DNA of 7,860 bases, taken from contig JAUWDC010000039.1 in assembly GCA_030608985.1 (NCBI GenBank), forward strand, positions 1 through 7,860, written 5' to 3'. Source of the stretch: Desulfobia sp. (GTDB taxonomy: Bacteria; Desulfobacterota; Desulfobulbia; Desulfobulbales; SURF-16). Position numbers and translations under genes: made by a program. Within the stretch, counting starts at the first letter, position 1; each line of letters opens with the position of its first letter. This document shows positions 2,571 through 7,614 of this stretch, in pieces. The notes beneath the pieces were generated by a model. It made no database searches and was not told where the DNA came from. It saw only the letters and a list, made by a program, of their open reading frames with translations.

Positions 2571-3530
2571 TTACGGGCGCACATCCACCCAGTTATCCAT
2601 ATCGGCTGACTCAATACACGCGCAACAGGCCCGTAAAGCCGCAAGGCCATCCTCTCCCGGAACAGGATTCCCCCCCTTCCCCACTAGATAATCGATCCAG
2701 TCCCGCAGAAGTGGAACAATCGTACCGCCAAGCCCATCATGAGCTAATGATTCTATGTCGGCATGGTGAATAAATTCCAGTCGCCCGTGTATCTGGTCGG
2801 CATGGAGTTCACCGTCAATACCAACAAATTCATAACGGCCTGTTCTCGCCTTTCCTACCTTGCTTGAATCCACAGTGCCGATAACACTATTTTCCAACTC
2901 TAGCTGGGCTGTAAAAAGATCTTCCAGGTGGGGATTATGTATCTGAAATCTGCTTGCCCGAACTCTGACAATATCGAGTCCGGTAATGTAGCGGAGGGCA
3001 TCAAACATGTGGATTGCCGTATGGAGGATGACGCCGGCCCCGGCCAGTCGGGGATCTTCAAGCCACTGCAGGGTCGAGGGCTCCAGCCTGTGACTGGCGG
3101 AAAAGCTGTACAGCTTTCCTGTTTTGAGGATATTTTTTTTCAGACCCTGGATGACGCTGTTATAGCGAAGGCTCTGGGCAACAGTGAGAGGAAGAGAGGC
3201 ATTGTGAAACATTGTCACAATTTCAGTACCGGCAGCGACATCTGCCGCAAGGGGTTTTTCAAGAAGAAGTGCTTTCTCCGCAGCAACGCAGGCCGTAGCA
3301 ATATCATGATTCAACATTGGCGGCACAACCGAAATAACCGCATCCACATCTTGGGCTGAAATCAGGTCTCTCCAGTCCCTATAATACCTGCAGTTCCACT
3401 CCTTTGCCTGATCTTTGCCAACTGCGGACCTCCTCGATATGGCAACCAGATCCAGATCAGGAAAATCATTTACAATATGGCGGGCATAGCGTGAGCCGTG
3501 TTTGCCTGTACCGATGATGCCTATTTTCAT
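2571..3530 (-). CDS. Gfo/Idh/MocA-family NAD(P)-dependent oxidoreductase, candidate peptide-tailoring enzyme
   Basis: The 319-residue protein is close to the usual family length. The N-terminal Rossmann fold has GIIGTGKHGSRYA (GxGxxG at residues 7-12). The family EKP motif is at 91-93, with K92 the usual catalytic lysine. The C-terminal substrate domain carries GAGVILHTAIHMFDALRYITG (164-184), whose His/Asp pattern (H170, H174, D177) matches the family active site. Members oxidise or reduce sugars, inositols and other small substrates, so sequence alone does not give the substrate. It starts 42 bases after the radical SAM gene stop, on the same strand, and the leader sequence has no obvious promoter or strong ribosome binding site. 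Co-transcription with the peptide and maturase genes is therefore likely. I infer, without proof, that it may carry out a redox step on the modified peptide. Confidence 0.88.
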   Translation of the reverse strand: MKIGIIGTGKHGSRYARHIVNDFPDLDLVAISRRSAVGKDQAKEWNCRYYRDWRDLISAQDVDAVISVVPPMLNHDIATACVAAEKALLLEKPLAADVAAGTEIVTMFHNASLPLTVAQSLRYNSVIQGLKKNILKTGKLYSFSASHRLEPSTLQWLEDPRLAGAGVILHTAIHMFDALRYITGLDIVRVRASRFQIHNPHLEDLFTAQLELENSVIGTVDSSKVGKARTGRYEFVGIDGELHADQIHGRLEFIHHADIESLAHDGLGGTIVPLLRDWIDYLVGKGGNPVPGEDGLAALRACCACIESADMDNWVDVRP

Positions 3531-3572: not shown

Positions 3573-5174
3573 CTATGTCTCCAAGAAACAATATGGATCC
3601 CGGTCTACGAACACATCGAGACCAAAACCATAGACAACAGCCGGGCAGCCCCCACAGACAGGCCGAATAGCGCAGGATGAGCAGGATGATGCTCCCTGTC
3701 GATATTTCCGGGCCTTTTCGCCATCATATATCTCTGCAATTGACTGCTCAAAAATATTGCCGATCAGGGAAGGAAGTTTTCGGCAGGCATGAACCTCACC
3801 GTCAGGCAGAGCCGCAATAAAATTAAATGCTGCGCCACATCCATGTCCGGCGCAGCCTCCAAACAAAGCCTGCCCCTGTTCAGATCGGGCAAGATTCAGG
3901 AGATTGTCTTTCAAGCTGATCACCGGGTTTTCAGTCGCGGCCTGCAGATATTCTTTCAAGAATTGCCGGTATTCATCCTGACGGACGGATAGCAGCTGCG
4001 CACCCTCTCCCACCATTGCCAGCCTGTTATAGGTAAACAGGTCAACTTTATCACGTAAACAATCTGCCAATGGCAGTACCTGGTCCATGTTGGCACGGGT
4101 CATGGTCAGCATCACCATGGAGTATATTTTCATCTCTTTAAGAAGCTCAAGAAAAGAAATAATACGATCAAAATGGCCCTCTCCCCGAATGTAATCATTG
4201 TGCTCAGCCAGTCCTTCCAGGCTCACCTGGTAGAAAACAGGCTCTTGTATGGCACATATCTCCTCCAGTTTCCGGCGCGAACAGGGATTACCCAATATCG
4301 CCGTCATCAGGTTGCGATCAACGGCCGCCTGGTAGAGCTCCAGAAAATTCGGATGGAGAAGAGGATTGCCGCCGGTAAAAGAAATCTGCCCCCTGACATT
4401 TCTTTCCAGGCAAAATGCCCGGAAATCATCAAGGATGGTAATCCCCTTGTCAAGGGGAAGAGTCGCCCGGCTGCTCCGGTCATAACAGTGGCGGCAATGA
4501 AGATCACAGACCTGGGTAATATGCCACTGCAGGGTGAAAACAGGTGATGAAAAAAAGCGATTGTCAATATTTTCGCCTTTGGGGAAATCGGAATCTCTCT
4601 CTATCCTTGATGGCGGTCGAAGCAGCAGTCCCAACCTGACAGCCCTGTCAATTGCACGATCAATAACACCTACCGCCACTCCACCTTCAGCTGCGACCTC
4701 TTCAACGGATAATTCGTCCGTAACAATTTTCAAGGCAAGCAGATCTGCCTCTACAGCCACCTTTTTCTTGACACGATCTCCATCAGGATCGCGCCATACC
4801 AGAACAGCTTCCGGTTCCGGCTTGACAGAATCTTCGGGATTAGCCTTGTCACTGTTCAGAAGAGACAACAGGTGTGACCAGGAAAGCTGCAGTAATTGCA
4901 GGGTGGGATTAACACAGAGTACTTCCACCTTATCGGGGATCTTCTTTTGGCCGCTCTGAGATACCTGAAAAAGGCTGAACTCAACCCGTGCCAGGTCCGG
5001 GATACATTCAGAAAGATCGAATTGTTGCCAATGCGATTCAAGAAATTTCGGAAATTGCTCTGGCGAGGGTCTATACGCAGAGTTTGCAAAAAAATTGGCC
5101 CAGGAGTCGGGATCGATATAGATTTTACAGGTTGGAAAAATATCTTCCGGTTGGCAGGGCCAGGATAATGTCAT
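3573..5174 (-). CDS. sbtM: Radical SAM/SPASM peptide maturase, SbtM type (acts on the Sec peptide)
   Basis: The 533-residue protein has the radical SAM cluster motif C223-x3-C227-x2-C230 (CDLHCRHC), followed by FTGGNPLLHP (266-275), the usual GGxP-like SAM-binding region. The C-terminal SPASM-type domain has C441, C446, C464, C498, C501, C507, C510 and C529, enough for two auxiliary Fe-S clusters, as in RiPP maturases. The ~200-residue N-terminal part is unfamiliar; residues ~145-187 (LKIVTDELSVEEVAAEGG...) resemble a small winged-helix or PqqD-like peptide-binding domain. It lies 51 bases downstream of the Sec peptide gene. This pairing matches the 'thio(seleno)oxazole modification' SbtA/SbtM pair defined in TIGRFAM/NCBIfam (name recalled, not searched). 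The start is ATG 5174; an in-frame TAA lies two codons upstream. The Shine-Dalgarno site is poor. The radical SAM/SPASM call is very firm; the SbtM name rests on context. Confidence 0.9.
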   Translation of the reverse strand: MTLSWPCQPEDIFPTCKIYIDPDSWANFFANSAYRPSPEQFPKFLESHWQQFDLSECIPDLARVEFSLFQVSQSGQKKIPDKVEVLCVNPTLQLLQLSWSHLLSLLNSDKANPEDSVKPEPEAVLVWRDPDGDRVKKKVAVEADLLALKIVTDELSVEEVAAEGGVAVGVIDRAIDRAVRLGLLLRPPSRIERDSDFPKGENIDNRFFSSPVFTLQWHITQVCDLHCRHCYDRSSRATLPLDKGITILDDFRAFCLERNVRGQISFTGGNPLLHPNFLELYQAAVDRNLMTAILGNPCSRRKLEEICAIQEPVFYQVSLEGLAEHNDYIRGEGHFDRIISFLELLKEMKIYSMVMLTMTRANMDQVLPLADCLRDKVDLFTYNRLAMVGEGAQLLSVRQDEYRQFLKEYLQAATENPVISLKDNLLNLARSEQGQALFGGCAGHGCGAAFNFIAALPDGEVHACRKLPSLIGNIFEQSIAEIYDGEKARKYRQGASSCSSCAIRPVCGGCPAVVYGFGLDVFVDRDPYCFLET

Positions 5175-5208
5175 TTCAGTTATAAAACCCGGGATGAATA
5201 AAGAAATT

Positions 5209-5225
5209 CAGTGCAAACTGCACTG
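5209..5225 (-). promoter_or_regulatory. SECIS-like hairpin 3 (for UGA at Sec93), lying after the stop codon
   Basis: On the minus strand CAGTGC (5225-5220), loop AGTTT (5219-5215) and GCACTG (5214-5209) form a perfect 6-bp stem with GU in the loop. It begins 15 nt after TGA 5243-5241 and directly after the TAA at 5228-5226, so it lies in the sbtA-sbtM spacer. Free of coding constraint, its loop differs from those of hairpins 1 and 2, yet its distance from the UGA is the same. No U-run follows, which argues against a terminator. Confidence 0.75.
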
Positions 5226-5519
5226 TTATTTGCTTCCGCTTCAGCCGCTGTCGCCAGCCTTCTTGGCTTTTTCTTCTTTGGCTTTTTCTTCAGCGTGTTC
5301 TTTTTCTTCTTCGGTGCTCACGGCACCTTTTTTGTCGGCGCTTCAGCCACTACCGCCAGTATCTTTCTCTACTTTTTCAGCGCTCACGGCGCTGTCATCT
5401 TTTGCGCTTCAGCCACTTCCACTGCCGCCTATGGCAGTCCCGCTGGTGAGCGGTAACCCTGTCAGCAAACTGGCAATACCAACACCTGCCAACAGTTTTT
5501 TTAGATCTTTTGTATCCAT
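5226..5519 (-). CDS. sbtA: Sec-containing RiPP precursor peptide, SbtA type (three in-frame UGA codons read as selenocysteine)
   Basis: From ATG 5519 the frame runs 97 codons to TAA 5228-5226 if TGA is read as Sec at codons 37, 59 and 93 (TGA at 5411-5409, 5345-5343 and 5243-5241). Residues 1-30 (MDTKDLKKLLAGVGIASLLT...) form a hydrophobic, leader-like region. The core then has GGSGSGUSAK, GGSGUSAD and GDSGUSGSK joined by Lys/Glu-rich linkers; the codons GGC TGA AGC are identical at all three sites. Each TGA has a GU-loop hairpin 14-15 nt downstream. AAAGGAGG lies 6 bases before the ATG, the best ribosome binding site in the window. The layout, a short leader plus repeated GSGU motifs beside a radical SAM maturase, matches the SbtA family of thio(seleno)oxazole-type RiPP precursors (recalled name). 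Standard gene calling would stop at residue 36 or miss the gene. A broken gene is the alternative, but the threefold repeat of the context argues strongly against it. Confidence 0.92.
5313..5327 (-). promoter_or_regulatory. SECIS-like hairpin 2 (for UGA at Sec59)
   Basis: GGTGC (5327-5323), loop CGTGA (5322-5318) and GCACC (5317-5313) form a perfect 5-bp stem starting 15 nt after TGA 5345-5343. The loop is identical to that of hairpin 1. The stem differs at two pairs, A-U to G-C and C-G to U-A, both compensatory. Confidence 0.82.
5378..5394 (-). promoter_or_regulatory. SECIS-like hairpin 1 (for UGA at Sec37)
   Basis: CAGCGC (5394-5389), loop CGTGA (5388-5384) and GCGCTG (5383-5378) form a perfect 6-bp stem starting 14 nt after TGA 5411-5409. 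A short hairpin with GU in the apical loop at this distance is what bacterial SelB recognises, as in E. coli fdhF (established knowledge). The loop codons are GCC GTG AGC (Ala-Val-Ser). Confidence 0.82.
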
Positions 5520-5525
5520 CTGTTT

Positions 5526-5533
5526 CCTCCTTT
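5526..5533 (-). promoter_or_regulatory. Strong ribosome binding site of sbtA
   Basis: The minus strand reads AAAGGAGG, 6 bases before ATG 5519. It fixes the start of the Sec peptide and shows that the frame is meant to be translated. Confidence 0.88.
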
Positions 5534-5549
5534 GTCATTTACACTCCTG

Positions 5550-5574
5550 AAAAAGACGCTCCCGGGCGGACGCC
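5550..5574 (-). promoter_or_regulatory. Terminator-like hairpin in the sbtA leader (possible attenuator)
   Basis: On the minus strand GGCGUCC (5574-5568), a GCCCG loop and GG-A-GCGUC (5562-5555) can form seven pairs, including two G-U pairs, with one bulged A. Five Us follow directly (5554-5550). It lies between the candidate promoter and the sbtA ribosome binding site. As the upstream gene is divergent, it would have to act on the sbtA transcript itself. No known riboswitch class was recognised. Confidence 0.4.
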
Positions 5575-5603
5575 TTTCCAAGCTTAAAAAAAGACATTGG
5601 TTA

Positions 5604-7433: not shown

Positions 7434-7441
7434 ATAAATTA

Positions 7442-7520
7442 ACCACAGAGGGCACAGAGACCACAGAGAAATCTTTTTATTACAAGTAGTTACCTCTGTG
7501 AACTCTGTGTGTTCTGTGGT
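7442..7520. repeat. CACAGAG-type long inverted repeat
   Basis: Arms 7442-7468 and 7494-7520 (27 bases each) are inverted repeats with mismatches only at three positions in one block (GGG against ACA, of which the middle and outer bases differ or wobble) and two in another; each arm carries three CACAGA units. The spacer is 25 bases. Intergenic ACCACAGAG...CACAGAG repeats are common in deltaproteobacteria (recalled). The transcript would form a long hairpin that might terminate or protect the upstream mRNA, but no U-run follows directly. Confidence 0.65.
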
Positions 7521-7560
7521 GAGAAAAAGACTTTTTCCGGGTGCATCATTTTAAACTTTT

Positions 7561-7602
7561 AACCTGAAACCTGAAACCTGAAACCTGAAACCTGAAACCT
7601 GA
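7561..7602 (+). repeat. Six perfect tandem copies of AACCTGA
   Basis: The heptamer AACCTGA is repeated six times without error, ending 12 bases before the ettA start codon. The rest of the 214-base spacer after the cyclase gene holds only the two other repeats described and an AT-rich stretch (7521-7560); no gene was seen. Such heptamer arrays can change length by slippage. Confidence 0.92.
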
Positions 7603-7614
7603 GATCTAACACCC

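Follow-up and report, generated by a model that had tools for sequence, protein, structure and literature searches.

A precursor with three predicted selenocysteines and its maturase

The SbtA/SbtM locus described here is a sound new member of the known family of thio(seleno)oxazole ribosomally synthesized and post-translationally modified peptides (RiPPs), and comprises a precursor gene, sbtA, with three in-frame TGA codons predicted to encode selenocysteine (Sec), and sbtM, the gene for a radical SAM/SPASM maturase. The stretch analyzed (the window) is the whole of contig C11 (7860 bases) from the fragmented Desulfobia sp. assembly G000 (1.69 Mb, 327 contigs, 70.5% complete). As a complete explanation, we consider it probable that this three-Sec SbtA receives selenooxazoles made by SbtM, leaves the cytoplasm and binds soft metals; we infer the ring on this SbtA peptide, its export and its metal binding by analogy with related systems.

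The translation of sbtA is MDTKDLKKLLAGVGIASLLTGLPLTSGTAIGGSGSGUSAKDDSAVSAEKVEKDTGGSGUSADKKGAVSTEEEKEHAEEKAKEEKAKKAGDSGUSGSK, with U at 37, 59, and 93. A preliminary description of this DNA had proposed a frame with three TGAs, led by a ribosome binding site and ending in TAA, at 5226..5519; this was borne out, with AAAGGAGG upstream, on the minus strand, which the description had left unstated, and the plus-strand frame at the same positions is unrelated to the sbtA reading. The assignment to the SbtA/SbtM class also held, as SbtA scored 43.0 bits against NCBIfam TIGR04081 (cut-off 30.5) and SbtM 744.5 bits against TIGR04082 (cut-off 350) over model positions 1-516. With the known family, which includes SbtM WP_083768621, the window shares both models, the S-G-Sec sites, the adjacency of the two genes on one strand, and the Sec machinery, and no feature of the locus excludes membership.

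A protein search with the window peptide matched six proteins (P0002-P0007). Four of these (P0002-P0005) are open reading frames (ORFs) 82-94% identical to the window SbtA that were translated with Trp at the UGAs, P0007 has mixed sites, and P0006 is a full-length homologue with Cys at all three sites, named by NCBI ‘SbtA family thio(seleno)oxazole RiPP natural product precursor’. The reading as a hidden gene holds with one correction: standard calling breaks sbtA, and the databases nevertheless contain ORFs of this kind. The Cys-for-Sec homologues that had been sought thus exist, and the precursor of locus L044 is likewise all-Cys and those of L077 and L073 are Cys in part. Using P0006 as the query in 22 genomes of the family, we found full-length matches in 11 (G000 included), each with one to four TGAs and no internal TAA or TAG, which contradicts ordinary stops without a conserved downstream frame. 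All 11 are among the 15 genomes with SbtM over its cut-off and sbtA adjoins sbtM in every one of them; this search gave no match in four SbtM-positive genomes of one genus, nor in the remaining seven of the family. Past the first TGA (codons 38-97), the proportions of synonymous (pS) and non-synonymous (pN) differences were 0.36 and 0.15 between the window and L031, and 0.65 and 0.26 between the window and L041, which is indicative of a synonymous bias.

For a broader comparison, 68 SbtM loci were assembled, 30 from genomes (the window's own among them) and 38 from contigs. Pattern search gave 47 distinct sbtA-like genes in 44 loci; eight more loci were copies and 16 had none. A leader hidden Markov model (HMM) recovered two further precursors, in L037 and L042, both outside the counts; the latter (L042:~2-250) is of the Cys type, with SSCSG, TSCSG, and TSCGG sites. 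Across 46 precursors, some of whose ends were trimmed by hand, Sec was absent from one, single in two, double in 26, triple in 15, and fourfold in two; three Sec in 97 residues, called exceptionally dense in the preliminary description, is hence usual for the family. Other variations were also observed among the precursors. In L054, L056, and L067 there are two sbtA paralogues per locus, one with a lipobox-like leader and the other without, and in four Desulfobulbaceae loci (L058, L060, L069, L076) long, helical-looking spacers of Ala, Lys, Asp, and Glu precede the last Sec. The precursors of L011-L013 end in Ser-UGA right before UAA, that of L014 nearly so, and this lineage has a conserved hairpin, AGGACGCA-GGT-TGCGTCCT, after the stop.

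Predicted selenocysteine decoding and the hairpins after UGA codons

All four genes whose presence the preliminary description had proposed to check were found over cut-off in G000, namely selA (625.6 bits, cut-off 267.9), selB (355 bits, cut-off 242.25), selD (366.3 bits, cut-off 125), and selC for tRNA-Sec (74.9 bits, cut-off 47). SelD (L079, G000:C112), which shares a contig with tRNA-Sec, has one in-frame TGA of its own and is so a selenoprotein candidate. A release factor 2 (RF2) match of 527.6 bits (cut-off 370; L092, G000:C128:5346-6383), with one TAA inside that may reflect a programmed frameshift or a fault of the assembly, leads us to expect UGA to act as an ordinary stop elsewhere in this genome. 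Of 146 relatives, 130 have tRNA-Sec above its cut-off in any case, so that its co-occurrence with SbtM (over cut-off in 85 of the 146) says little; from a reading of two tables, six or seven SbtM-positive genomes have no tRNA-Sec, most of them less than 90% complete.

Each of the three UGAs in the window has, 14-15 bases downstream, a hairpin with GU in its loop, and the one beyond the stop codon recurs in relatives, as do the three Sec sites. The hairpins satisfy the bacterial selenocysteine insertion sequence (bSECIS) rules as printed in the legend of Fig. 2 of PMC13188914, with energies of -12.5, -7.7, and -11.5 for hairpins 1 to 3. When a tighter geometry was applied to 46 genes (L052 was dropped for its read-through end, and the ends of L019, L053, L025, L039, L045, and L059 were set by hand), a hairpin was found at 92 of 107 Sec sites versus 4 of 46 Cys sites, and among internal sites at 56 of 67 versus 3 of 33. 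When synonymous codons were shuffled, the mean score of the internal Sec sites fell from 12.99 to 1.95, and p was <= 0.05 at 41 of the 67. The stems also covary: over 112 distinct UGA sites, taken regardless of hairpin, 444 of 672 cells pair in a fixed 6-5-6 frame, compared with a mean of 299.7 and a maximum of 347 in 2000 permutations, which ignore relatedness, and with 195-269 when the frame is slid by 1-3 bases. A GU loop is present in 86 of the 95 hairpins scoring at least 13. This structure, its covariation and its rarity at Cys sites suggest that Sec would be read at the three UGAs with the aid of the downstream hairpin.

The codons recurring around the TGAs code for S-G-U-S, as the preliminary description had noted. 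The ‘SAVS/GAVS’ codon repeats encode hairpins 1 and 2, so that part of the repeat is explained by RNA hairpins, and we conclude that the motif repeats are due in good part to the hairpin after each UGA and not to peptide chemistry alone. In the Cys homologue P0006, the hairpin codons for SAVS are changed and now give SSMK and SAAT. An Rfam search of 5100-5600 returned three hits with E up to 5, all below the gathering scores and none to a SECIS family. Hairpin 3 was also considered as a terminator; relatives, inspected by eye, keep the GU loop and have no consistent run of T. In three Nitrospirota loci (L049, L056, L067), several UGAs are without a hairpin of the common type and a later UGA has one; a single hairpin may act there for several UGAs.

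The maturase and its recognition module

SbtM-like proteins are abundant, with 3133 in the database at E <= 1e-60 (120 listed), and the CxxxCxxC cysteines C223, C227, and C230 are invariant in 34 aligned SbtMs; the window SbtM has the SPASM cysteines as well. In all 34, the first ~190 residues match the DUF2063-RRE proteins that partner MNIO enzymes. The best fold match of this module is 3DEE, and MNIO partners align along the length of the helical part that precedes the RRE, which chains with only an RRE do not. Strong matches are confined to one divergent PF09836 clade; Pfam reports no DUF2063 in SbtM, the PF09836 model does not call the module, and the A2 profile gave only chance matches among PDB sequences. 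It took closer relatives, the comparison of profiles, and folds to bring out the link. The homology of these ~190 residues to the DUF2063-RRE partners was shown here and is new; the preliminary description mentions neither this module nor the signal-peptide-like leader. Well supported, too, is the view that in SbtM a radical SAM enzyme replaces the MNIO and is joined with the same kind of recognition module. In the portions of the literature available to us, no statement was found of a DUF2063/PME homology of SbtM or of a signal peptide in SbtA; Lewis et al. (2021) may say more.

CteB, SkfB, and SuiB, which are ranthi- and sactipeptide maturases and relatives, also have an N-terminal RRE. Their radical SAM and SPASM half is like that of SbtM, and in the PDB they are among its closest hits, both by Foldseek over the whole chain and by sequence. 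SbtM differs from them in the helical part aligned by MNIO partners, and in that its reported product is a ring at one residue and not a thioether bridge.

A leader resembling signal peptides

The window leader has a K-rich start, then a hydrophobic stretch, and A-I-G ahead of the GSGSGU core. A hydrophobic stretch was present in 47 of 47 SbtA leaders (15% of shuffled ones), and 39 carry a net charge of +1 or more. Twelve leaders carry a lipobox-like motif (11 G-C, one N-C; 5.8% in shuffled leaders), the Cys of which is never Sec; the rule had flagged 15, from which L011-L013 were removed as their match is the S-G-C core site itself. Most leaders without a lipobox have A-x-A or A-x-G ahead of the core, a rule that in L056 and L067 (second copies) matched outside the leader. 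To judge from these sequence features, SbtA leaders resemble signal peptides or lipoprotein signals, and the peptide may be exported.

Besides sbtM, no gene cluster is common to more than 13 of 39 loci (391 ORFs; 38 loci and the window). That no gene other than sbtA and sbtM is widely shared fits an exit of the modified peptide by the general secretory route.

Proposed function and its alternatives

The class is not known from genome mining alone, as the preliminary description had it in the main. In vitro, SbtM WP_083768621 removed 4 H from Cys and SeCys substrates alike, and nuclear magnetic resonance of the Cys product gave a thiooxazole, an assay credited to Lewis et al. (2021) and taken here through a review (PMC11002830). 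Two captophorin papers cite a modified SbtMa peptide for its band at ~305 nm, as in 5-thiooxazoles, and the 5-thiooxazoles of captophorins (bufferins, fontiphorin, oxazolin) are reported to bind copper (PMC13097082, PMC12538549). MNIO enzymes install the same ring on exported peptides that bind copper. PME1 partners were reported with MNIOs whose precursors bear signal peptides of the secretory (Sec) type (PMC12452194), described as uncommon for RiPPs.

Captophorins (bufferins, fontiphorin, oxazolin, gonophorin, bulbicupramide) consist of an MNIO, PME1 (DUF2063-RRE), and a Cys-rich precursor. The SbtA/SbtM system is like them in its homologous DUF2063-RRE module, in having several modified chalcogen residues per peptide, and in the ring class, as reported for another SbtM; its leader, signal-peptide-like by simple rules, may be a further likeness. 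It differs in the catalyst, here a radical SAM/SPASM enzyme that forms one protein with the module and there a separate O2-using MNIO, and in having Sec where captophorins have Cys. No MNIO (PF05114) was matched in G000, at its 70.5% completeness, or among the scanned genes of the window. An MNIO was matched in only one of 146 relatives, G059, which is without SbtM over the cut-off; the filter used gave no SbtA-like precursor within the 14 kb surrounding the nearest pair of MNIO and partner (L097). As no MNIO was found, SbtA/SbtM does not count among the captophorins; in its mode of action it would resemble them.

We propose that the N-terminal module of SbtM would bind the SbtA leader and leave the core to the radical SAM half, which likely turns each S-G-Sec site into a 5-selenooxazole ring. 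The leader would double as a secretory signal peptide, or in certain relatives as a lipoprotein signal, the modified SbtA would exit the cytoplasm by the general secretory route, and outside it the rings may bind soft metal ions, with copper foremost, in the manner of the captophorin 5-thiooxazoles. In this way the pathway could be a counterpart of the MNIO one that uses selenium and does not depend on oxygen. More tentatively, and with somewhat less than even confidence, we suggest that these are selenium captophorins made by a radical SAM enzyme, in which anaerobes swapped the MNIO for a module-fused radical SAM protein and use exported multi-selenooxazole peptides, some of them lipoproteins, to sequester copper or other soft metals. 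The literature available to us yielded no statement of a function for the SbtA/SbtM family; the link between SbtM and MNIO partners offers a first concrete and testable one and explains its leader. If true, two unrelated catalysts, one needing O2 and one not, would arrive at the same heterocycle by way of a common recognition module, and selenocysteine would be put to use in forming a metal-binding ring and not as a catalytic residue.

Several observations weigh against this proposal and the evidence beneath it. An SbtA leader was lacking in 14 of the 68 SbtM loci even with the leader HMM included, some such loci having only 1.5 kb of flank or lying at a contig end, and L043, L047, and L050 having 5 kb. 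A net charge of +1 is missing from 8 of 47 leaders, and signal peptides were judged by simple rules, of which A-x-A/G is loose and had no shuffle control. In single-HMM searches the classical DUF2063 proteins give only weak matches to SbtM (E 0.005-0.04). No metal-related gene was recognized near sbtA/sbtM, where not all clusters were annotated, and the authors of bulbicupramide are themselves hesitant on a copper-protective role for this captophorin (PMC12538549). The published bSECIS rules discriminate poorly, accepting 98 of 106 Sec sites but also 24 of the 46 Cys sites and 316 of 1162 codons from the background; they are too loose as a lone test, and reliance was therefore placed on the tighter geometry together with the codon-shuffle and Cys-site controls. 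For the two internal hairpins of the window the codon-shuffle p values are only 0.047 and 0.053 (the third lies outside the shuffled part), borderline values owing to which the hairpin case rests on the family. Finally, 15 of 107 Sec sites have no hairpin: seven in three Nitrospirota loci, five with another UGA or Cys within eight codons, and the remainder in L039 (where the DNA ends), L022, and L071 (both with weaker hairpins).

An unlikely alternative, although the strongest of those considered, is that SbtA is a selenium RiPP (‘selenobiotic’) whose leader is cleaved off and which serves as an antimicrobial or in signalling, not as a metal binder. The database family name, ‘selenobiotic family peptide radical SAM maturase’, and the two-gene RiPP layout agree with it, and the module homology tells how SbtA is recognized, not what its role is. 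However, no immunity, transporter, or peptidase gene is conserved beside the pair in the 39 loci compared, the leaders look signal-peptide-like, and the same ring is reported to bind copper in captophorins. Still less likely, and in our view improbable, is a periplasmic peptide for selenium or metal storage or for redox, in which Sec would function in selenol or diselenide form and ring formation would be minor or partial. Up to four Sec per SbtA and the mixed Sec/Cys sites of the family would suit such a peptide, whereas the recognition module fused to SbtM, the adjacency of sbtA and sbtM in all 11 family genomes with a detected SbtA, and the ring formation reported in vitro for an SbtM weigh against it.

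Reading of TGA as tryptophan through a code change, as gene callers have it in P0002-P0005, was rejected and is very improbable given the RF2 match, the complete Sec machinery, the Cys at UGA positions in relatives, the hairpins that follow UGA sites, and the absence of Trp after an S/G-type motif in the 47 sbtA-like genes. That sbtA is a chance ORF or a decayed gene with three stops, as its breakage by standard calling might suggest, is next to impossible in view of the TGA-only interruptions in 11 of 11 detected family members, the synonymous bias past the TGAs, and the covarying hairpins.

Layout of the locus and other observations

The coordinates are collected in Table 1. The gap between sbtA and sbtM is 51 bases, with the start of sbtM, which lies downstream, at 5174. 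Many sbtA relatives have similar ribosome binding sites upstream, and TTGACA-17-GATAAT, resembling the promoter-like pair of sbtA, shows up in several relatives when eight of their upstream regions are aligned with that of sbtA.

Table 1. Coordinates of the sbtA/sbtM features within the window
Feature	Position	Strand	Remarks
sbtA precursor gene, 97 codons	5226..5519	minus	TAA stop 5228-5226; TIGR04081 match
SbtA leader, residues 1-31	5427..5519	minus	TIGR04081 covers 1-25; putatively signal-peptide-like
TGA, predicted Sec37	5409..5411	minus	
TGA, predicted Sec59	5343..5345	minus	
TGA, predicted Sec93	5241..5243	minus	
SECIS-like hairpin 1, CAGCGC-CGUGA-GCGCUG	5378..5394	minus	encodes SAVSA
SECIS-like hairpin 2, GGUGC-CGUGA-GCACC	5313..5327	minus	encodes GAVST
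SECIS-like hairpin 3, CAGUGCA-GUU-UGCACUG	5209..5225	minus	begins at the base after TAA
Ribosome binding site AAAGGAGG	5526..5533	minus	upstream of sbtA
Promoter-like TTGACT-17-TATTAA	5604..5632	minus	putative promoter; alignment of 9 upstream regions
sbtM radical SAM/SPASM maturase, 533 aa	3573..5174	minus	TIGR04082
SbtM residues ~10-196, DUF2063-like helical part and RRE winged helix	4587..5147	minus	homology to MNIO partners
SbtM radical SAM domain, CxxxCxxC	4062..4520	minus	PF04055
SbtM SPASM domain (auxiliary Fe-S clusters)	3672..3839	minus	PF13186

Directly after sbtM lies a gene for a Gfo/Idh/MocA oxidoreductase (2571-3530, minus strand), the cluster of which is otherwise found only in L041, L046, and L073; as it stands beside sbtM in only four loci, the window included, this is probably lineage synteny. 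Outside the called genes there is an imperfect 42-base inverted repeat (arms 186-227 and 253-294, 76%) with the ends GTAACTGTTCAG/CTGAACAGTTAC. Tandem AACCTGA repeats at 7553-7608 stand ahead of a gene for an ABC-transporter-type ATPase, and a CACAGAG-rich stretch at 7440-7520 is, by eye, an inverted repeat.
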